From the IMG/VR virus record IMGVR_UViG_3300044712_001255, positions 248,001 through 312,000 of that record: DNA of 64,000 bases; one strand, 5' to 3'. Position 1 is the first letter of the stretch. Every line of letters starts with the position of its first letter. Position numbers and translations under genes: made by a program. Source of the DNA: a virus. Below are positions 10,398 through 37,938 of this stretch, piece after piece. A model generated the notes under the pieces. The model searched no databases. It was not told the DNA's origin and worked only from the letters and a program-made list of their open reading frames with translations.

Positions 10398-10595
10398 CGC
10401 CGGATAGTGGTGGGTTCCACTGCGTAAGTGAATGAAGTAACTATGCTAATGCGACGCTTGGGTTCGAGTCCCAACAGGTAACAAATGGGCATAATGGTAA
10501 CGGTTACTGGTTACGCAAAACAAGTTGACTACGAGGGCAAATGTTAGCGTAATCTACTGGGTTCGATTCCCGATAGTCCGCAAATCACAATGAAT
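10398..10595 (+). ncRNA. atypical tRNA-like region with two T-arms
   Basis: Two good T-arms (TTGGG-TTCGAGT-CCCAA at about 10459-10475 and a TTCGATT loop at about 10561) but no normal cloverleaf around either. An 8-bp stem GGTTACGC/GCGTAATC encloses about 30 bases just before the second T-arm, as if an anticodon or variable arm carried an insertion. Direct and inverted GTAAC/GTTAC repeats lie at 10476-10515. Could be decayed, interrupted or rearranged tRNA genes; I cannot resolve which. Confidence 0.4.
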
Positions 10596-10667: not shown

Positions 10668-10738
10668 TGCGGCGTAGTTCAATGGTAAAACAGCTCGCTC
10701 TGACCGAGTATCTGTAGGTTCAACTCCTACCGCCGCAA
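10668..10738 (+). tRNA. tRNA-Gln(CTG)
   Basis: Acceptor TGCGGCG/CGCCGCA, anticodon loop CTCTGAC, T-loop TTCAACT, A73. One base separates it from the preceding tRNA. Confidence 0.85.
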
Positions 10739-10924
10739 CGAGCCGACAATTCCAGTTTCGAGTACTGGACGCACTTGATAACATTGGCGCTTGAAAGGGC
10801 CCATTCACATTGTCTCGAGCACCAGTGTGATGGGCAGCAAGTACGTAAAACGCCTCACGACATCGTAGAAATAGCAATGAAAACAAAGTGTGTAATGCAA
10901 GTGGTAGCATATCGGCGTGTTTTT
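10739..10924 (+). tRNA. candidate permuted tRNA gene (3' half - spacer - 5' half), locus B
   Basis: The 3' half comes first (10739-10777): anticodon-stem strand GCCGA, T-arm CCAGT-TTCGAGT-ACTGG, acceptor strand ACGCACT. A 108-base structured spacer follows, then the 5' half (10886-10924): acceptor strand AGTGTGT, D-arm TGC-AAGTGGTA-GCA, anticodon-stem strand TCGGC. The acceptor strands pair over 7 bp (8 if extended) and the anticodon strands over 5 of 5. The halves abut complete tRNA-Gln genes on both sides. The anticodon cannot be fixed; joining GTGT to CGA would give GTC. Confidence 0.55.
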
Positions 10925-10995
10925 TGGAGCATCATCTAATGGCAGGATAGTAGCCTTTGAAGCTATGAATAGGGGTTCGAGTCCCTTTGCTCCAA
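10925..10995 (+). tRNA. tRNA-Gln(TTG)
   Basis: Acceptor TGGAGCA/TGCTCCA, anticodon loop CTTTGAA on stem TAGC/GCTA, T-loop TTCGAGT, A73. Confidence 0.9.
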
Positions 10996-11164
10996 CAAGC
11001 CCGAGACCTGGGTTCGAGTCCCAGTTGGACGGTGGCGCTTGAGAGCAAGTCAACGTGCTGATCACACGGAGACATCGCTAGTACGTAAGTCGCCGGCAAT
11101 TGGCTGATCACCTTTTGTCTTGTCCAGTAGTTTAGCGGTCAGAACACGGGCAGTCCTTTCACAT
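10996..11164 (+). tRNA. candidate permuted tRNA gene (3' half - spacer - 5' half), locus A
   Basis: 3' half 10996-11032: anticodon strand GCCCG, variable AGAC, T-arm CTGGG-TTCGAGT-CCCAG, acceptor strand TTGGACG, G73. Spacer 11033-11120. 5' half 11121-11164: acceptor TGTCCAG (7 pairs with two wobbles), D-arm GTTT...GAAC with GG in the loop, anticodon strand CGGGC, which pairs perfectly with GCCCG. The spacer shares TGGCGCTTGA and AGTACGTAA-NN-CGCC with locus B. The anticodon is uncertain; joining AGTC to CAA would give TCC, while an intact CTTTCAC follows in the 5' half. Confidence 0.55.
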
Positions 11165-11237
11165 GCACTAGTAACTCAATCGGTAGAGTAGACGGCCTTT
11201 AACCGTAAAGTTGAGAGTTCGAGCCTCTCCTGGTGCA
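11165..11237 (+). tRNA. tRNA-Lys(TTT)
   Basis: Acceptor GCACTAG/CTGGTGC, anticodon loop CCTTTAA (C at position 33 instead of U), T-loop TTCGAGC, A73. Confidence 0.8.
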
Positions 11238-11551: not shown

Positions 11552-11555
11552 CCAT

Positions 11556-11631
11556 GGCCTTGTCGTCTATGAATGTAGGACGCCACCCCTTAGTCGAGGT
11601 GGAAAAACAGGTGCGAATACTGTCGAGGCCG
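11556..11631 (+). tRNA. atypical Glu-like tRNA with 10-base anticodon loop
   Basis: Acceptor GGCCTTG/CGAGGCC and a Glu-like D-arm (TCGTCTA). Anticodon stem CCACC/GGTGG closes a 10-base loop CCTTAGTCGA, so the anticodon cannot be assigned. T-loop TGCGAAT, G73. Confidence 0.5.
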
Positions 11632-11637
11632 CAAATT

Positions 11638-11710
11638 GATTCTGTCGTCTATGAGTAAGACAATCCCAAATTGGTGGGAATAAAAGCTGATTCGTTGTCA
11701 GCCTGGATCA
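11638..11710 (+). tRNA. atypical tRNA with six-base anticodon loop
   Basis: Acceptor GATTCTG/CTGGATC, stem TCCCA/TGGGA around loop AATTGG, T-arm GCTGA-TTCGTTG-TCAGC. If TGG is the anticodon it would read Pro codons. Confidence 0.5.
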
Positions 11711-11711
11711 C

Positions 11712-19538: not shown

Positions 19539-21179
19539 ATGGCTAAGAAGACTGCTAAGAATGTTGCTCCGGTTCAGATGTCTGAGGCTGACGCAGCGAA
19601 ACTGCGTGAGGCTGCGGCTCGATTCGATCTCAACGTTCACATCATCAATTTCCTCAGCTCTAACGCATTCTATGCTGAGATCTCTCGTCGAGTTCACAAG
19701 ATCAGCACGAAGGACATTCCCACCGCTGCTGTGGCTTGGAACCAGAAGCTCGACAACATCGTGTTGTACTACAACCCGGAATTCATGTGCCAGCACACCC
19801 CAAAGCAGGTGATTGGCATTCTGAAGCACGAATTCAGTCACTTGTTCTACGGACACTTGAACGCTCGTCGGAAGACTCCACACCGTATGTGGAACATCGC
19901 TACCGATCTTGCAATCAATTCGCTGATTGTTTCGAGCGAGCAGAATTCTGCTTCATATTCTAACATCAACAATCCTCAGGCTGTTTTGCCGGAATGCGCA
20001 TTGATTCCCGGCCACCCGGTTTTCTTTGCAGATCTCAAGCGGCCCTTGACGGCTGATGAGAAGGCTGCGCAGCCCATCGCTGCTCTTATCGAGAAGATGA
20101 AGCCGTTGCTCGCTTCTGAGGATTATTTCCAGCAGCTGATGAAGGTCGCAAAGGAACAGCAGAACACTTGCCCGATGTGTGGCGGTTCTGGCAAGATCAA
20201 GGTGAAGTCTGACGCGGGTGGAGATGAGAATAGCTCAGACGGGCGGGACGGCGTCGAGAAGGAAGGCCAGGACAAGGGCGAAAATGACAAGGGTAATGGG
20301 TCATCTCGCGGAGATGATTCTCACGACGAGGGATGCGAGGGCGATGGAAATTGTTCTTGTGGCCACGGCGATAACGAGCCCGGTGGTTGTAGTGGTCCTG
20401 ATGGTGAATATGATTGCCCTTGCTGCAAGGGCGATGGTGAGCTCGGTGACGGCATTGGTTCGATGGACGATCATGGATTTTGGGATGACATCCCGGAAGA
20501 TATGCGTGAATACGTCGAAAATCGTGTGCGTAACGTGATTGAGCGCGCTGTTGAATCCGCCGATCAGAGCTCGAATGGCTGGGGCTATATGCCTGCTTCG
20601 ATTCGTGAGGAGATTCGTCGGTTCGTATCCAAGAAGGTGCCGTGGCGCTCTGTACTCCGGCAGTTCATTGGAGTGCTTCTGCCAGGCGATCGTTCTACCA
20701 GCATCAAGCGCATCAATCGTCGCTATCCGTATATCCATCCCGGTGTGAAGCGTGGTCGCAAGGCTAAGCTTCTCGTCGCAATCGATATGTCTGGTTCTGT
20801 TGGAGAGGAACTTCTCGCAACGTTCTTTGCGGAACTAACCAACTTGGCAAAGAATTGTGAGATCGATGTTGTCCCGTTCGATTGCTCTGCTGAACCTGAA
20901 CATATCGTCAAGTGGCGACGTGGTGGTCCCCCTCCGATGGGTCGGGTGAAGGCCGGTGGTACCAGCTTTGATGCTCCCACTGACCTTGCCAATGATCCTA
21001 AGAACCGCGGTCGTTGGGATGGTCTGCTAATCGTCACAGACGGGATTTGCAACGCTCCCAAGGAAAGTCGGGTACGTCGCGGATGGGTTCTTGGTCCTGG
21101 GTGCAAGCTGCAATTCGACTCGAACGAGCTCCAGGTCTTCGTAGACAATGAGCGACCGATGGTCGGAGCGTGGAGGTGA
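19539..21179 (+). CDS. VWA/metallopeptidase-like protein (DUF2201 type) with DnaJ-like Zn motifs
   Basis: 546 aa. Zinc-protease motif KHEFSHLFYGH with His97, Glu98, His101, followed by WNIATDLAIN. The middle (about 205-310) has CPMCGGSG and CPCCKGDG, the CxxCxGxG repeats of DnaJ zinc fingers, in a Gly/Asp/Glu-rich acidic stretch. The C-terminal domain has a MIDAS motif DMSGSVG and LLIVTDGIC of a von Willebrand A fold. The family often pairs with MoxR-type AAA ATPases; none is seen here. Likely a metal-dependent chaperone- or protease-like factor; substrate unknown. Confidence 0.8.
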   Translation: MAKKTAKNVAPVQMSEADAAKLREAAARFDLNVHIINFLSSNAFYAEISRRVHKISTKDIPTAAVAWNQKLDNIVLYYNPEFMCQHTPKQVIGILKHEFSHLFYGHLNARRKTPHRMWNIATDLAINSLIVSSEQNSASYSNINNPQAVLPECALIPGHPVFFADLKRPLTADEKAAQPIAALIEKMKPLLASEDYFQQLMKVAKEQQNTCPMCGGSGKIKVKSDAGGDENSSDGRDGVEKEGQDKGENDKGNGSSRGDDSHDEGCEGDGNCSCGHGDNEPGGCSGPDGEYDCPCCKGDGELGDGIGSMDDHGFWDDIPEDMREYVENRVRNVIERAVESADQSSNGWGYMPASIREEIRRFVSKKVPWRSVLRQFIGVLLPGDRSTSIKRINRRYPYIHPGVKRGRKAKLLVAIDMSGSVGEELLATFFAELTNLAKNCEIDVVPFDCSAEPEHIVKWRRGGPPPMGRVKAGGTSFDAPTDLANDPKNRGRWDGLLIVTDGICNAPKESRVRRGWVLGPGCKLQFDSNELQVFVDNERPMVGAWR

Positions 21180-23600: not shown

Positions 23601-23670
23601 CAAAGCGTAGCTCAAAGAGAGCGGCTGATCGTGGAGATCAGTGATGCAGAATCGGTACCTGCCGCTTTGA
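23601..23670 (+). tRNA. atypical tRNA-like gene without canonical T-loop
   Basis: Acceptor CAAAGCG/CGCTTTG and D-stem GCTC/GAGC are perfect; anticodon stem CTGAT/ATCAG with loop CGTGGAG; T-arm position holds GCAG-AATCGGTAC-CTGC instead of a TTCGANT loop. Perhaps Pro(TGG) or His-like, or a decayed gene. Confidence 0.45.
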
Positions 23671-23722
23671 CGGATCGAAAGAAAGTTGTTTCGATCTTGT
23701 TCATTGACAATCTGCATTCTTT

Positions 23723-23793: not shown

Positions 23794-23887
23794 CTGGGAA
23801 TACGTCATTTTCCTAGTGCAGGGACGCCTGTTGAGTGAGAGTGACGTAGACCATACACTAGAAAAATGATTGATAGAATTGATCGAT

Positions 23888-24466
23888 ATGAAGAAATGTG
23901 ATGCATCTCTTGAAGAGATTCAAAGATTCGTAAAAGAATCAACATGTATTTCGCAAGTTGTCATTGCGCTCAAATTACCGTGTAATGCGAAGTACGCAGA
24001 ATTTGTTCGTCAATTGATCTCACAACACGCACTTGACACATCTCACTTCACACGCAAACGAAAATATGAACGAATCAGAAAAGCTTGTCCTGTTTGTCAA
24101 ACAACGTTTGAAACATACGTAAATCATCCTAAATACAACAAAACAACGTGTTCGTGTGCTTGCGCAAATTCATTCTTTCGTAGTGGAAATAACAACCCAA
24201 ACACAAAGCATGACGAAGATAAGGGAACGTGGATGTACACGTTATGTTGGAAAAATCATGAACATCAATGCGTCATTTGTGGTGAACAAAACATCGTAGC
24301 TGTTCACCATTTTAATGGTAAACATGATGACAATCGACCAGAGAATTTGGTACCTATGTGTCCAACACATCATCAATATTGGCACTCTAAATTTCGATCA
24401 CTCATAGAGGAAAAAGTAAACACATATGTAGAAAATTGGATCTCAACACATCAGAGATTAGTGTAG
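23888..24466 (+). CDS. HNH endonuclease with N-terminal zinc-binding region
   Basis: 192 aa from ATG 23888; an in-frame TTG at 23870 is another start. Cys pairs CPVCQTTF and CSCACANSFF, then CVICGEQNIVAVHHFNG with DNRPENLVPMCPTHHQYWHS: a complete HNH core. The last 15 bases overlap the 5' end of the tRNA-Pro gene at 24452, placing this nuclease gene directly against a tRNA as homing elements often are. Confidence 0.85.
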   Translation: MKKCDASLEEIQRFVKESTCISQVVIALKLPCNAKYAEFVRQLISQHALDTSHFTRKRKYERIRKACPVCQTTFETYVNHPKYNKTTCSCACANSFFRSGNNNPNTKHDEDKGTWMYTLCWKNHEHQCVICGEQNIVAVHHFNGKHDDNRPENLVPMCPTHHQYWHSKFRSLIEEKVNTYVENWISTHQRLV

Positions 24467-24522: not shown

Positions 24523-24689
24523 CGCACACGTGGTGGAAAGGCAGACACAACATTAAAAGCGTAAGGTGCTTGTTGGCGTTGATTCGCCAGCATCAAGCAT
24601 GGATCGAGGGAGCGTAACGCGGTGCGGAAAACGGCCAACGGGTACGACAATCGTGAAGTGTGCAGCAGGTTTGCGGATGCACCGGAACG
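24523..24689 (+). ncRNA. tRNA-Leu-like 5' half followed by unresolved structured RNA
   Basis: GCACACG then a Leu-type D-arm GTG-GAAAGGCAGA-CAC at about 24526-24551, a CAACA...TGTTG stem with an oversized loop and a GGCG-TTGATT-CGCC hairpin. AGTGTGC near 24656 could be the matching acceptor strand but no TTCGA T-loop precedes it; GTGCG near 24616 is an alternative. Probably an interrupted or decayed tRNA-Leu. Confidence 0.35.
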
Positions 24690-24770
24690 GCGCTCGAGGG
24701 TGTCGTAAGGGAAGCGAGCTTATCCTAAAAGCTGCAGATGTGGATGCGGGTTCGAGTCCCGCCGTGCGCA
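24690..24770 (+). tRNA. tRNA-Arg(CCT), first copy
   Basis: Acceptor GCGCTCG/CGTGCGC with one mismatch, anticodon arm AGCTT-ATCCTAA-AAGCT, T-arm GCGGG-TTCGAGT-CCCGC, A73; variable loop longer than usual. Confidence 0.7.
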
Positions 24771-25886: not shown

Positions 25887-26043
25887 GATCAAGTAACCAG
25901 ATCTTTTGATCCGATGTTGATAACGTAAGTCAACTTTTTGGCGGAACTGGCAGACGCGCCGGCCTAAGAAACTGGCATGATCATTTGAACAAAATTCTTG
26001 TGATCTATGTGGGTTCAAGTCCCACAAGAGAAGGTGAACGATC
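25887..26043 (+). ncRNA. bracketed tRNA element 1 (outer helix, GTAAC, AGGTGAA)
   Basis: GATC at 25887-25890, two bases, GTAAC (25893-25897); at the far end AGGTGAA (26032-26038), one base, GATC (26040-26043). The bracket encloses the Leu-type tRNA at 25932-26033. The same layout recurs three more times downstream. Confidence 0.45.
25932..26033 (+). tRNA. tRNA-Leu, anticodon AAG or TAA
   Basis: Leu-type D-arm GCGGAACTGGCAGACGC, anticodon stem GCCGG/CTGGC around the nine-base loop CCTAAGAAA, very long variable arm closed by GATCA/TGATC, T-arm GTGGG-TTCAAGT-CCCAC. The acceptor pairing is poor. Confidence 0.6.
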
Positions 26044-26121: not shown

Positions 26122-26212
26122 GAGCGCGGTAACTACGTTCGTTGTCATGGTTTGACAAGGAATTCTTTCAAAAATTCCTATTTTGGTTCGAATCCAAATA
26201 GGTGAAGCGCTC
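26122..26212 (+). ncRNA. bracketed tRNA-like element 2
   Basis: Outer helix GAGCGC/GCGCTC (26122-26127 with 26207-26212), GTAAC at 26129-26133, AGGTGAA at 26200-26206. Inside: arm TTGTC-ATGGTTT-GACAA (GGT or similar anticodon), a variable arm GGAATT/AATTCC and a T-loop TTCGAAT on an extended stem. Confidence 0.5.
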
Positions 26213-26219
26213 AATCTTC

Positions 26220-26318
26220 AAACAAAAGTAACCTCACAAACGAAGTGTTGATAGTGACACAACTTGAGTTTAACAAGAAAAAGTAGGTGCAAGTCCTGCC
26301 GTGAAGGTGAAATTGTTT
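26220..26318 (+). ncRNA. bracketed tRNA-like element 3
   Basis: Outer helix AAACAA/TTGTTT, GTAAC at 26228-26232, AGGTGAA at 26305-26311. Inside: D-arm-like GTGT/ACAC, arm CTTG-AGTTTAA-CAAG (Lys- or Asn-like loop) and a T-arm-like GTAGG-TGCAAGT-CCTGC. ACCTCAC pairs with GTGAAGGT with one bulge as a possible acceptor stem. Confidence 0.5.
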
Positions 26319-26324
26319 CTTTTT

Positions 26325-26421
26325 CAACAAAGTAACTGTTTTCGTGTTGATTGATAATCATCTTAGCTTAAAACTAAGACAATCTGGTGAGACTCCAGAC
26401 TCGAGTTTAGGTGAAATGTTG
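26325..26421 (+). ncRNA. bracketed tRNA-like element 4, Leu(TAA)-type anticodon arm
   Basis: Outer helix CAACA/TGTTG, GTAAC at 26332-26336, AGGTGAA at 26409-26415. Inside: perfect anticodon arm CTTAG-CTTAAAA-CTAAG, identical in form to tRNA-Leu(UAA), and a T-arm-like CTGG-TGAGACT-CCAG. Confidence 0.5.
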
Positions 26422-26424
26422 TAC

Positions 26425-26510
26425 AAACGTGATGAGTAACATACAATGTCAAGGTGACATCCACAAGATGTCATACGTGGTGCAAATCCCGGACGTGAAA
26501 ATCATACGAT
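26425..26510 (+). ncRNA. related element 5, weaker match
   Basis: GTAAC at 26436-26440, a stem ATGTC/GACAT region, T-loop-like CGTGG-TGCAAAT-CCCGG and GTGAAAA before a short CGT.../...ACG outer pairing. Fewer shared bases than its neighbours. Confidence 0.35.
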
Positions 26511-27014: not shown

Positions 27015-27557
27015 ATGGCAAATCAATATTCTAAGTTTAAATGGGAAGATGAACGTCCATTTGAAGATCTGGGCCGAGTAAAACAACGTAACTTCCTAAT
27101 AAAAGAAGCGAATTTTAGTTGTTCTGCTTGCGGCTTCAATAAGTCAAGAGAAGACGGACGATCAATTTTAGAAATTCATCACATCGATGGGAATCATCAA
27201 AATAATGTTCGATCAAATTTGAAAGTGTTATGTCCAAATTGCCATGCCATGACGTTAAAATTCAGATTTTACGGAAAATCACATCTATCGTCAAAAGATC
27301 ATAGAGCTCGAACTATCAATAAAGAGCTCAGAATAAAACGTAAATTAGCGAGAGAACAACGCCAATCAAAAATTAGAGATCAGTTTTGTGAAACGATATT
27401 GTTATGTCATGAGACAAAAGAAATTGATTTCTCTAAATTTGGATGGGTATTACGTCTATCTGAGATGTTTGGCGTAACGCACCAAGCAATTGGTAGACGT
27501 ATAAGAAAATTGATGCCAGAATTCTACAATGATCATTGCTTCAAAAGGAAAGCATAA
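27015..27557 (+). CDS. HNH endonuclease with C-terminal HTH-like tail
   Basis: 180 aa. CSACGFNKS, then ILEIHHIDGNHQNN with RSNLKVLCPNCHAMT: full HNH core. The C-terminal ~50 residues (GWVLRLSEMFGVTHQAIGRRIRKLMPEFY) form a likely DNA-binding HTH as in many phage homing HNH enzymes. Inserted between tRNA-Leu and tRNA-Ile. Confidence 0.9.
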   Translation: MANQYSKFKWEDERPFEDLGRVKQRNFLIKEANFSCSACGFNKSREDGRSILEIHHIDGNHQNNVRSNLKVLCPNCHAMTLKFRFYGKSHLSSKDHRARTINKELRIKRKLAREQRQSKIRDQFCETILLCHETKEIDFSKFGWVLRLSEMFGVTHQAIGRRIRKLMPEFYNDHCFKRKA

Positions 27558-27563
27558 AATACG

Positions 27564-27641
27564 GGACTCGCGGCTTATCCGGATGGTTTGCCGGAATCTG
27601 TCCTATGAACAGACGCCAATGGTTCAATTCCGACGAGTCCT
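27564..27641 (+). tRNA. tRNA-Ile(TAT)
   Basis: Acceptor GGACTCG/CGAGTCC, anticodon arm TCTGT-CCTATGA-ACAGA (C33), large D-arm, weak T-stem with loop TTCAATT. A TAT anticodon would read AUA directly instead of through a lysidine-modified CAT tRNA. Confidence 0.7.
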
Positions 27642-27647
27642 ACATAC

Positions 27648-28042: not shown

Positions 28043-28443
28043 AAATACTTGTTTGCGGCTCTAGACATTGGGATGACATCGAGACAATTGCGCGTGTGTT
28101 GGAGGGGTTACCCAAATCTGGTGTCACGATAATACATGGGGCGGCTCGAGGGGCTGACATGATAGCCGGAGAGGTGGCCAAGCAGTTTGGATGGAACGTA
28201 CGTGAATACCCGGCGCAGTGGGACAAACACGGTAAAGCTGCTGGACCTCTTAGGAATCAGCTCATGCTTGATCGTGAAAATCTACGAGACAATCCTATTG
28301 AACTGTGCATTGCATTTCATGATGAGTTGCACAAGCAAGAGGGCGGTACTTACGACATGGTGAGACGATCTGCAGCTCTTGGCATACCCGTTAGAAATGT
28401 GAGATCATCAAATGACTCAACAAATAACACGCTTCATCAATGA
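28039..28443 (+). CDS. SLOG-family (YspA/DUF2493) nucleotide-binding protein
   Basis: 134 aa. CGSRHWDD near the start, IIHGAARGADMIAG at about 31-44 and WDKHGKAAGPLRNQLML at about 61-77 are the DUF2493/YspA signature of the Rossmann-like SLOG fold, which senses nucleotides such as ADP-ribose derivatives. Paired with the overlapping NADAR gene, so both likely act on NAD or ADP-ribose metabolites. Confidence 0.8.
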   Translation: MKILVCGSRHWDDIETIARVLEGLPKSGVTIIHGAARGADMIAGEVAKQFGWNVREYPAQWDKHGKAAGPLRNQLMLDRENLRDNPIELCIAFHDELHKQEGGTYDMVRRSAALGIPVRNVRSSNDSTNNTLHQ

Positions 28444-28876
28444 GTACGCATTTTTGAGCAGCTTTCATACGTCCACGGTGCGATGGGACGGTAGACTCTG
28501 GAAGTCGGTTGAACACGCGTATCAGGCAGCAAAGACGCTTGATGCCAAACAACGAGACATGATTCAGGCTGCAAAAACTCCTGGCGAAGCAAAGCGGATT
28601 GGGCAAGCTATCACGCTTCGACCTGATTGGGACGACGTAAAGTTGAACATCATGCGTGAATTGATTCATGAAAAGTTTATGAATCCTTTCCTGCGTCACA
28701 GGTTGCTTGAAACGGGTGAAGCAGAGTTGATTGAAATCAACTTTTGGAACGATAAATTTTGGGGCGTCTGTCGCGGTGAAGGAAAAAATCACTTAGGCAG
28801 AATTCTCATGGATGAGCGAGACAGCATACGAGAAGAATTGATCGCAGATAACACCACCGTGGAGGAACTTCGGTAG
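28412..28876 (+). CDS. NADAR-domain (YbiA-like) N-glycosidase
   Basis: 154 aa. FLSSFHTSTVRWDGRLWKSVEHAYQAAKTLD is the NADAR start; DDVKLNIMRELIHEKF and FWGVCRGEGKNHLGRILM follow with the conserved WG and G-x-N-x-L-G residues. Members cleave riboflavin intermediates or remove ADP-ribose from guanine. Overlaps the SLOG gene by 32 bases, and its last 24 bases form the 5' end of tRNA-Leu(CAG). Confidence 0.8.
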   Translation: MTQQITRFINEYAFLSSFHTSTVRWDGRLWKSVEHAYQAAKTLDAKQRDMIQAAKTPGEAKRIGQAITLRPDWDDVKLNIMRELIHEKFMNPFLRHRLLETGEAELIEINFWNDKFWGVCRGEGKNHLGRILMDERDSIREELIADNTTVEELR

Positions 28877-35964: not shown

Positions 35965-36126
35965 ATGGCCAATTTCAAGAGAGGTCGCGCAAAGAACAGA
36001 AGACACGGATGCCTGCTTTGCAAGCCGTGGAAGATGAACGGCGGCAAGAAGAAGTTGTGCAAACACAAGTATCGTTGCGAATCGATCTCTATGCGTGAGC
36101 AGATCAACGAACTAGATGAACGTTGA
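35965..36126 (+). CDS. small basic Cys-containing protein, 53 aa
   Basis: MANFKRGRAKNRRHGCLLC, then KPWKMNG and a second Cys pair. Resembles a short conserved bacterial/phage protein with the pattern KxRxxRxGCLLCKPWK; role unknown, probably nucleic-acid- or zinc-binding. It ends inside the convergent HAD gene. Confidence 0.5.
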   Translation: MANFKRGRAKNRRHGCLLCKPWKMNGGKKKLCKHKYRCESISMREQINELDER

Positions 36127-36625
36127 CAATACACCCCCACTCAAGTGCTTCTTTTGCCAATAACTTTGCGCCATTGATGTGAAAGTTATTGTCATCATAG
36201 AATTCCACTTGACGTAGGCCACGTTGCTTGATCAATTGCGCAATATATCGCGCCTTTCCAGGTGGAATGTCTGCTTTCTCGCCGAGTGCCATGACTTCGC
36301 ATCCCGGCATATTGTGCATATCAAGGAACTCCTTGGGTCCATTGGGAGATCCTCGGGCAGTCATCACCATCACGCCTTCAGGACCCAATCGCTTGTATGC
36401 GTCCTTTGCTATGTCGAGAATCTCATCATTCTCGTGAAATTCGGGCGCAAGCGACTGGAATTGACTCATATCGTATGAGTACTGTGTTTCGTCCATGCGA
36501 TGTTCTCGCCATTGTCGAGAATCTAGCCATTGGACCTCACCAGTGTCGAGGTCAGTTACCTTGATGCGTGCATCAGAGACACACAACGTATCATCAAAGT
36601 CGAAAATGTAAAGCTTGTTTGGCAT
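36104..36625 (-). CDS. HAD-family phosphatase
   Basis: 173 aa. Motif I FDFDDTLC, motif II MVMTARG, motif III Lys in GKARYIAQL, motif IV FYDDNNFH. The DxDDT and late DDxxF form resemble the phosphatase domain of T4 polynucleotide kinase (PseT), although no kinase domain is attached. Divergent from the RNA ligase gene, sharing a 77-base interval; together they could repair cleaved tRNA ends. Confidence 0.75.
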   Translation of the reverse strand: MPNKLYIFDFDDTLCVSDARIKVTDLDTGEVQWLDSRQWREHRMDETQYSYDMSQFQSLAPEFHENDEILDIAKDAYKRLGPEGVMVMTARGSPNGPKEFLDMHNMPGCEVMALGEKADIPPGKARYIAQLIKQRGLRQVEFYDDNNFHINGAKLLAKEALEWGCIVNVHLVR

Positions 36626-36702
36626 CTAGCTTACCTAGCAAATCCTATCCCTCTTATACGCGGTGTACTCGAGCGTCATTGTGTGGTAATGTACCTATAA
36701 AT

Positions 36703-37938
36703 ATGGCACACAATATTCCCATAGTGATCGAATACTTGAAGACCCACTCTCTCCAGGAGCTGGAGGATGAGCATGGCGTCAAAGCTCGTCCTGACGCGGC
36801 GAACACCAAGTTTAGCCTAAATTACGATCAATTGGCTATCAAGGGCGGTGACAAGCTTGCTGAGCAGTGCCGCGGTATGGTTGTTCGTCCAATCAATGTT
36901 GCAACTTCTGGCGCATCATTTGATTGGGAAAAGCTACGTTCTGCACCCGTTGGCGAGTGCGTTGTCCTGTGTCGGCCAATGGATCGATTCTACAATGACG
37001 GTGATTTCTACGCCGCAAAGATAGACTATGATTCTGCCGTCGTGTATGAGAAGCTCGACGGTACTATGATGGCTGCATATTGGGACCCGCTCAAGGCTGC
37101 ATGGCACACCGCAACTCGATCAATTCCTGAGGCTGACCTGCCAATTCGGTTGGGAGACTTGGTGTTGGAAGATACCACGTTCCGTGGTCTGTTCGATCAG
37201 GCATTGGAATACATGATTAATGGTGAACGTGATCCAATGTTTCCAAATGCAATGACGTGGTGGAATCGACTCAACAAGCAATACACCTATGTCTTTGAAC
37301 TGACGAGCCCATTGAATCGTGTAGTTGTGCAGTATGACGAACCACGTATTACTGCGATCGCTTGTCGAGATAACGTATCTGGTCGTGAATGTCTCACTGG
37401 TATGTATCAACTCTGGCCTCGCCCTCGCACGTGGAAGCTCAATGACACTCATGCTATTAAGGCATTGGCGGATTCATTCTCTCCCGCTGAGTTGGAGGGG
37501 TTTGTAGTGTGTGATGTTCATTTCAAACGCGTCAAGATCAAGAATGCTGCATACGTCTTGGCACACCACGCCAAGGATGGCATCGTGTCTTCAAAGCGCA
37601 ATGCGCTTGTCGCAGCATTCAAGGGAATCCTTGATGACGTCATGCCCATGGTCGATCCTGCAACGCGAAAGGCAATGGAGGAACTGCAATTTGCTGTTGG
37701 CAAGTTCATCAAGGAGAGCGAAGCAAAGTACGCAGATTGGGCATCGCAGTGCGAACCCGGTGACAACAAGACGTTTGCGTCCTTTGTGAGCGCAAATCAA
37801 CCCGTGTTGTCGTCAGCGTACTATGCCGTGTTCCGCGGCAAGAGCAAGACCATCGGAGAATACATGACTCAACACATTGGCGAAGGAATGATTGGCGACA
37901 AGGCACTCGACAATATTCTTACCTACTTGAAGGTGTGA
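36703..37938 (+). CDS. RNA ligase, T4 Rnl1 family
   Basis: 411 aa from ATG 36703. CRGMVVRP upstream of motif I, YEKLDGTM with Lys117 as the AMP-accepting residue, FELTSP (motif III), EGFVVCD (motif IV) and VKIKN (motif V) in Rnl1 order, followed by a helical C-terminal domain as in T4 RnlA. It seals 5'-phosphate and 3'-OH RNA ends, classically a cleaved anticodon loop. TATAAATA directly before the ATG could be a late-type promoter. Partners: HAD phosphatase next door, cREC at 4303. Confidence 0.88.
   Translation: MAHNIPIVIEYLKTHSLQELEDEHGVKARPDAANTKFSLNYDQLAIKGGDKLAEQCRGMVVRPINVATSGASFDWEKLRSAPVGECVVLCRPMDRFYNDGDFYAAKIDYDSAVVYEKLDGTMMAAYWDPLKAAWHTATRSIPEADLPIRLGDLVLEDTTFRGLFDQALEYMINGERDPMFPNAMTWWNRLNKQYTYVFELTSPLNRVVVQYDEPRITAIACRDNVSGRECLTGMYQLWPRPRTWKLNDTHAIKALADSFSPAELEGFVVCDVHFKRVKIKNAAYVLAHHAKDGIVSSKRNALVAAFKGILDDVMPMVDPATRKAMEELQFAVGKFIKESEAKYADWASQCEPGDNKTFASFVSANQPVLSSAYYAVFRGKSKTIGEYMTQHIGEGMIGDKALDNILTYLKV

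Follow-up and report, generated by a model that had tools for sequence, protein, structure and literature searches.

The window analysed here – 64,000 bases, taken from positions 248001-312000 in the 324,468-base record of an uncultured giant bacterial virus with a terminase akin to those of T4-like phages – carries 45 tRNAs according to ARAGORN and 46 according to Rfam. In the first tRNA array, two elements alternate with complete tRNA genes in the order tRNA-Gln(ctg), A, tRNA-Gln(ttg), B, tRNA-Lys(ttt). Both A (10742-10916) and B (10999-11151) hold the halves of a tRNA in reversed order: the 3' half, with its anticodon strand, variable loop, T-arm and acceptor strand, comes first and is followed by a spacer and then by the 5' half (Table 1). 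This arrangement, proposed in a first-pass annotation, was borne out at both loci, together with the location of both breaks within the anticodon loop and the tight placement of the elements between complete tRNAs, where the fit is exact. Element A shows irregularities: positions 53 and 61 form a U-A pair, and one base too many separates the T stem from the acceptor stem; an alternative 5' acceptor strand (AAGTGTG, from 10886) gives it a canonical U8 and a 4-bp D-stem.

Other oddities populate the window. tRNA-like stretches missed by both Rfam and ARAGORN occur at 10399-10595 and 11555-11711; with their orphan T-arms, anticodon loops of ~8-10 nt and mismatched acceptor stems, they are probably decayed or highly unusual tRNAs. 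At 24524-24770, a tRNA-Leu-like 5' half and a 3' half stand ~180 nt apart and form 11/12 pairs, possibly representing an interrupted tRNA, the downstream part of which is called by ARAGORN as tRNA-Arg(cct). Four more places (25938-26040, 26130-26500, 27561-27645 and 23604-23675) resemble tRNAs but have unusual loops or carry long insertions, and receive no full call from tRNA finders. Genes for a NADAR-domain protein and HNH endonuclease-like proteins lie among the tRNA arrays (28412-28876; 19539-21179; 23870-24466; 27015-27557).

The phage also encodes the RNA ligase that the first-pass annotation had listed. Both the family profile and the KxDG nucleotidyltransferase motif place it in the T4 Rnl1 family, with PF09511 scoring below its cut-off. 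Of the HAD phosphatase listed alongside, a HAD-like protein is indeed present, weakly matching a polynucleotide-kinase family and giving no match in Pfam. RtcB, considered as another joining enzyme, is absent from the 324-kb record, which is possibly incomplete.

Table 1. Features of the two elements, their neighbours, the RNA-repair genes and the YrlA-like RNAs of other phages (window coordinates unless a locus is given)
Feature	Position	Strand	Remarks
Complete tRNA-Gln(ctg)	10668-10738	+	immediately upstream of A; C74 at 10739
A 3' half	10740-10775	+	loop GA; anticodon strand GCCGA, 10742-10746; variable loop CAATT
A T-arm	10752-10768	+	CCAGT/TTCGAGT/ACTGG; loop TTCGAGT
A 3' acceptor strand	10769-10775	+	ACGCACT; alternative CGCACTT, 10770-10776
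A spacer	10776-10886	+	111 nt
Shared motif 1 in A	10785-10794	+	TGGCGCTTGA
Shared motif 2 in A	10840-10854	+	AGTACGTAA-AA-CGCC
A 5' half	10887-10924	+	acceptor strand AGTGTGT, 10887-10893; D-arm; anticodon strand TCGGC, 10912-10916; tail GTGTTTTT
Complete tRNA-Gln(ttg)	10925-10995	+	between A and B; C74 at 10996
B 3' half	10997-11031	+	loop AA; anticodon strand GCCCG, 10999-11003; 4-nt variable loop AGAC
B T-arm	11008-11024	+	CTGGG/TTCGAGT/CCCAG; loop TTCGAGT
B 3' acceptor strand	11025-11031	+	TTGGACG
B spacer	11032-11120	+	89 nt
Shared motif 1 in B	11033-11042	+	TGGCGCTTGA
Shared motif 2 in B	11080-11094	+	AGTACGTAA-GT-CGCC
B 5' half	11121-11164	+	acceptor strand TGTCCAG, 11121-11127; U8 A9; D-arm GTTT/GAAC; anticodon strand CGGGC, 11147-11151; tail AGTCCTTTCACA
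Complete tRNA-Lys(ttt)	11165-11237	+	immediately downstream of B
HAD-like protein	36104-36625	-	divergent from the ligase gene; weak match, phrog_415, E 1.7e-4 (polynucleotide-kinase family); DFDDT motif
T4 Rnl1-type RNA ligase	36568-37938	+	phrog_562, E 2.9e-34; T4 RNA ligase 1 in PDB, 6e-6; KLDGT motif; candidate joining enzyme if the halves are ligated
Rhodobacter phage RcXuper (OP186293.1) YrlA-like module	L302 3686-3749		Val-like; 6-nt acceptor loop; basal stem
Ruegeria phage RpAliso YrlA-like RNAs	L307 1587-1652 and 1733-1808
Streptomyces phage Alone3 YrlA-like RNA	L306 1473-1587
Caulobacter phage CcrPW YrlA-like RNAs	L305 1485-1595 and 1983-2092
Bacillus phage G YrlA-like RNA	L324 7233-7319

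Pairing between the halves

All 21 cloverleaf pairs form at A and all 21 at B, including 12/12 cross-half pairs in each. Both strands of the 324,468 bases were scanned for an anticodon strand, T-arm and acceptor strand followed, within at most 400 nt, by an acceptor strand, D-arm and anticodon strand, and the matches with 12/12 cross-half pairs were A and B alone. When each 3' half was paired with each 5' half at other distances as a null set of 3.17 million combinations, 12/12 pairs with at least 10 Watson-Crick pairs arose in only three, two of which are A and B; among the neighbouring combinations (n=4,548), ~0.0014 such matches would be expected. The permuted pattern is thus far beyond chance, which the two matches against this expectation – and the spacer motifs described below – rule out as the origin of the elements.

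Comparison of A with B shows 13 of the 21 pairs differing on both sides and none broken (a count made from the sequence). These differences would amount to compensatory change if the elements share descent, as is suggested – from two sequences – by their spacers.

Not every approach separates A and B from the rest of the array. The covariance-model search proposed in the first-pass annotation does score both (26.9 bits for A, 35.0 bits for B), but ordinary adjacent tRNAs, read as the 3' half of one and the 5' half of the next, reach scores just as high, so that the covariance score does not discriminate and mismatch-free pairing alone does. In the minimum free energy (MFE) structure of either precursor, none of the four permuted-cloverleaf stems is missing, but the folding energies are unexceptional against dinucleotide shuffles (z = -2.1 and +0.1), and the case therefore rests on the pairing pattern and the sharing of motifs.

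Two technical or structural explanations were also tried. Misassembly is unlikely because no long repeat spans any of the four junctions, junction-spanning 20-mers having at most 10-12 nt in common with the rest of the genome. Nor is tRNA-Gln nested in the anticodon loop of another tRNA: the flanking halves fail to pair across it.

A motif shared by the spacers

Two spacers are present, as first described, although their lengths come to 111 and 89 nt from acceptor strand to acceptor strand rather than 108 and 88 nt, a discrepancy that reflects where the discriminator is drawn. The motifs reported to be common to them were found in the same order in A and B – TGGCGCTTGA, then AGTACGTAA-NN-CGCC – with the possibility of a GGCG/CGCC closing helix. 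A shared 10-mer followed by a shared 9-mer appeared in 0/20,000 shuffles of the two spacers, and the mismatch-free motif pair is found nowhere else in the phage genome. The conserved motif is asymmetric (GGCG-CTTGA ... AGTACGTAA-NN-CGCC) and would enclose a variable hairpin; in the MFE structures, the conserved domain of A folds unlike that of B. Both spacers are too short for a permuted intron-exon arrangement of the group I kind.

Features bearing on tRNA maturation

The halves retain most of the invariant tRNA bases, including U8, A14, G18G19, A21 and the TTCGA T-loop. When 4 nt (GTGT in A, AGTC in B) are joined to 3 nt (CGA and CAA, respectively), 7-nt loops result and ARAGORN calls tRNA-Asp(gtc) and tRNA-Gly(tcc), compared with 56/930 (6%) of the control chimeras made from the phage's own halves. 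Untrimmed, however, the anticodon loops would measure ~11 and 15 nt. A 7-nt loop with U33 is possible in A, as Asp or Asn, whereas B offers only G33; of the 45 complete tRNAs, at least 42 have a U immediately 5' of the anticodon. The isotypes that the joined loops spell – Asp, Asn and Gly(tcc) – are all already encoded by the phage.

A and B also depart from the complete tRNAs at the acceptor end. C74 is encoded by 43/45 complete tRNAs of the phage but by 0/2 of A and B (p = 0.006), so that the acceptor ends of the two elements look not to be built for the same maturation as those of the complete tRNAs. The claim that A and B are tRNA genes is weakened accordingly, by the lack of C74 in both and of U33 in any 7-nt loop of B. 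The C that follows each upstream tRNA had been taken as a base of the anticodon loop, but is most simply the C74 of that tRNA-Gln; if so, it is probably not position 36, and the anticodon of A is either GUC (Asp) or GUU (Asn). Also weakened, because a C follows 43/45 complete tRNAs, is the idea that exact 7-nt loops are produced by RNase Z, leaving CGA or CAA, and exonucleases, leaving the 4 nt.

As a side observation, the 43/45 complete tRNAs with C74 (in the window arrays, 9926-35308) do not encode CCA. The same is seen in mycobacteriophage Erdmann (23/26) and in huge phage LR756511 (26/26), while the tRNAs of RcXuper and XacN1 encode CCA.

Search for relatives

In IMG/VR and GTDB contigs, the spacer motif gave chance matches only, mostly within genes. 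Loci near relatives of the array-adjacent protein, the terminase, the DNA ligase and the RNA ligase contained no permuted halves – for the terminase, identity to the closest relatives is ~58% along their length – and a blast search of rejoined A and B against phages returned no good homologue. Altogether, no related locus was found in IMG/VR, the GTDB contigs or the phage collection. Within the genome itself, the best identity to a complete tRNA is 64% for A and 67% for B, against a nearest-neighbour median of 70% among the complete tRNAs; neither element was thus copied freshly from one of them.

Interpretation

Any reading of A and B starts from what can be seen directly, namely their potential to fold, the above-chance pairing, the common cap motif and the exact fit between tRNAs. 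From sequence alone, the halves may either be joined into working tRNAs or form tRNA look-alikes, and the order in which the readings are taken here is one of judgement rather than computation.

The best reading, which we hold tentatively and at somewhat less than an even chance, sees in A and B a paralogous pair of structured noncoding RNAs, which mimic tRNA rather than mature into it and carry a conserved domain at the acceptor end. We infer that both would be transcribed as part of the tRNA operon, released by processing of the complete tRNAs on either side and stable thereafter. Each would fold into a T-arm, an acceptor stem, a D-arm and a closing, anticodon-like stem in permuted order, with its free ends in the anticodon loop, while the 89-111-nt domain – the conserved asymmetric motif around a variable hairpin – would cap the acceptor stem. 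By analogy with YrlA, the tRNA-like part may function as a mimic of tRNA, or as bait, for anticodon nucleases or proteins that bind tRNA, with the conserved cap as the site where a partner would be held. What A and B have in common is the very stretch that tRNA maturation would throw away, which is what one would anticipate were this domain the working part.

Several observations speak for mimicry: neither element has a broken pair, both lack C74, B lacks U33 and the isotypes are redundant; phages, moreover, offer a precedent for permuted tRNA-like modules in the YrlA-like RNAs of five phages described below. Against it stands the absence of all YrlA-specific marks, namely the basal stem, a TROVE gene and a match to RF02553. 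The conserved domain, furthermore, is known from two sequences, too few for support by covariation, and has differing MFE folds, and the coaxial T and acceptor stems might, upon an RNase P cut, give a two-piece or ligatable tRNA.

The latter leads to the next reading, which we regard as possible but the less probable of the two: that A and B are true permuted tRNA genes. Here the spacer would be removed by RNase P (and RNase Z), the 5' half trimmed towards the anticodon stem and the loop sealed by the Rnl1-type ligase into a functional tRNA. RNase P and RNase Z leave 3'-OH and 5'-phosphate ends, which an Rnl1-type ligase can join, and processing of the neighbouring tRNAs would free the loop ends in just this form. 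The complete pairing, the invariant bases and the ARAGORN calls for both joined loops, rare among chimeras, all agree with such a route, as does the Rnl1 homologue of the phage, given that T4 Rnl1 mends tRNAs whose anticodon loop has been cleaved (PMC10264068); the closed spacer is also similar to the intervening sequence that permuted pre-tRNAs of algae contain (PMC3978253).

It is countered by the missing C74, by G33 in B and the U-A pair and irregular T/acceptor junction in A, by the presumed position-36 C that probably belongs to the upstream tRNA (without it, A reads GUU for Asn), by loops too long unless trimmed and by the redundancy of the isotypes. The spacers, too, exceed any known intervening sequence (1-74 nt) and, unlike known cases, share a motif. 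In its fullest form – a phage encoding true permuted tRNAs that are sealed in the anticodon loop by its own T4-type ligase, requiring neither splicing endonuclease nor bulge-helix-bulge (BHB) motif, and that are intact only where the repair enzyme is active – the proposal seems to us slightly less probable again.

Decaying remnants are unlikely. According to this explanation, tandem copies of two tRNAs lost their outer 5' and 3' halves through recombination of the array, and the inner halves pair through descent from the same parent. Degenerate tRNA-like stretches do occur in the same array (10399-10595 and 11555-11711), and the presence of HNH genes between tRNAs hints that the region is mobile and recombines. 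Yet 0/42 pairs are broken across A and B, and no complete tRNA resembles either, the low identities implying that any loss was not recent. Two independent losses would be required, each ending in the anticodon loop flush with the neighbouring tRNA, while C74 should have been kept and the common spacer motif is left without explanation. Finally, that A and B are YrlA-family Y RNAs binding a Ro/TROVE protein is largely refuted and highly improbable: they share the permuted order of T-arm, acceptor stem and D-arm with an RNA that superposes on tRNA by permutation, and phage YrlA-like RNAs likewise lie in or near tRNA clusters, as well as Ro genes, but A and B lack the YrlA-specific marks and their acceptor loop is far longer (89-111 vs 6-25 nt).

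If the halves are joined, the phage RNA ligase would have a constructive job beyond repair; to our knowledge, Rnl1 has never been shown to assemble tRNAs from separately encoded halves, and we know of no earlier report of permuted tRNA maturation in the bacterial world, of which A and B would be the first case. If A and B are mimics, tRNA mimicry would here take a new form, in which the permuted tRNA-like body bears a conserved domain at its acceptor end and is encoded inside a tRNA operon, by a virus equipped with RNA-repair genes as well. Whichever holds, the outcome is relevant to why giant phages have large tRNA arrays and how they cope with anticodon-cutting defences.

Comparison with known systems

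The first-pass remark that no permuted tRNA gene was known to have been described in a phage is weakened, as YrlA-type RNAs, which are permuted and tRNA-like, already occur there: several phages carry YrlA (PMC7765460), a tRNA mimic that superposes on tRNA by circular permutation (PMC11472068) and whose basal stem holds Ro, its tRNA-like domain binding PNPase (PMC8394870). Using our own scan and the Rfam YrlA model, we found unannotated YrlA-like elements, below the Rfam cut-off, in five other phages: Rhodobacter phage RcXuper, Ruegeria phage RpAliso, Streptomyces phage Alone3, Caulobacter phage CcrPW and Bacillus phage G. The RcXuper element, at 40.7 bits against a gathering threshold of 69, first surfaced when the permuted-tRNA covariance model was tested on other phages. 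Annotated Ro/TROVE proteins lie near the elements in two of the five, Alone3 and G. That these RNAs had gone unannotated indicates how easily tRNA finders miss such elements. In RcXuper, the module adjoins a permuted tmRNA of the alphaproteobacterial type (L302 3216-3632), and RpAliso also has a permuted tmRNA (L307 1240-1461).

Given this precedent, finding a permuted tRNA shape in a phage does not suffice to identify a permuted tRNA gene. A and B share with YrlA (RF02553) the permuted module of T-arm, acceptor hairpin and D-arm, but are not YrlA. Whereas YrlA forms a long basal stem from its ends and binds Ro/Rsr, the ends of A can form 7 Watson-Crick pairs and those of B 5 (the null averages 6.4, and the YrlA-like RNAs of phages have 7 to 17), and both elements abut complete tRNAs; RF02553 gives no match to either at E<=10, and the 324-kb phage record, possibly incomplete, contains no TROVE gene (PF05731), though the host may encode one.

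In unicellular algae and in Thermofilum pendens, circularly permuted tRNA genes likewise place the 3' half first and an intervening sequence in the acceptor loop, but they rely on a BHB motif, a tRNA-splicing endonuclease and an unconserved intervening sequence of 1-74 nt (PMC3978253). A and B differ in being flanked by tRNAs instead of leader and trailer, in their 89-111-nt spacers with a common motif and in the lack of C74. As to a splicing motif at the junction, the flanks of A and B are complete tRNAs and pair with each other no better than background. In two-piece (permuted) tmRNA (RF04321), too, the 3' piece with the acceptor end is encoded first and the 5' piece later; the spacer is cut out, and the two pieces, held together by pairing, function unligated. 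A tag-coding part is absent from A and B, and no match to RF04321 or tmRNA was found within the array. The T4 tRNA repair system (Pnkp/Rnl1), for its part, resembles the situation here in its Rnl1-type ligase, which in this phage stands beside a HAD-like protein, and in the site of the break to be sealed, within the anticodon loop; it differs in that the T4 system mends tRNAs that have been cut.
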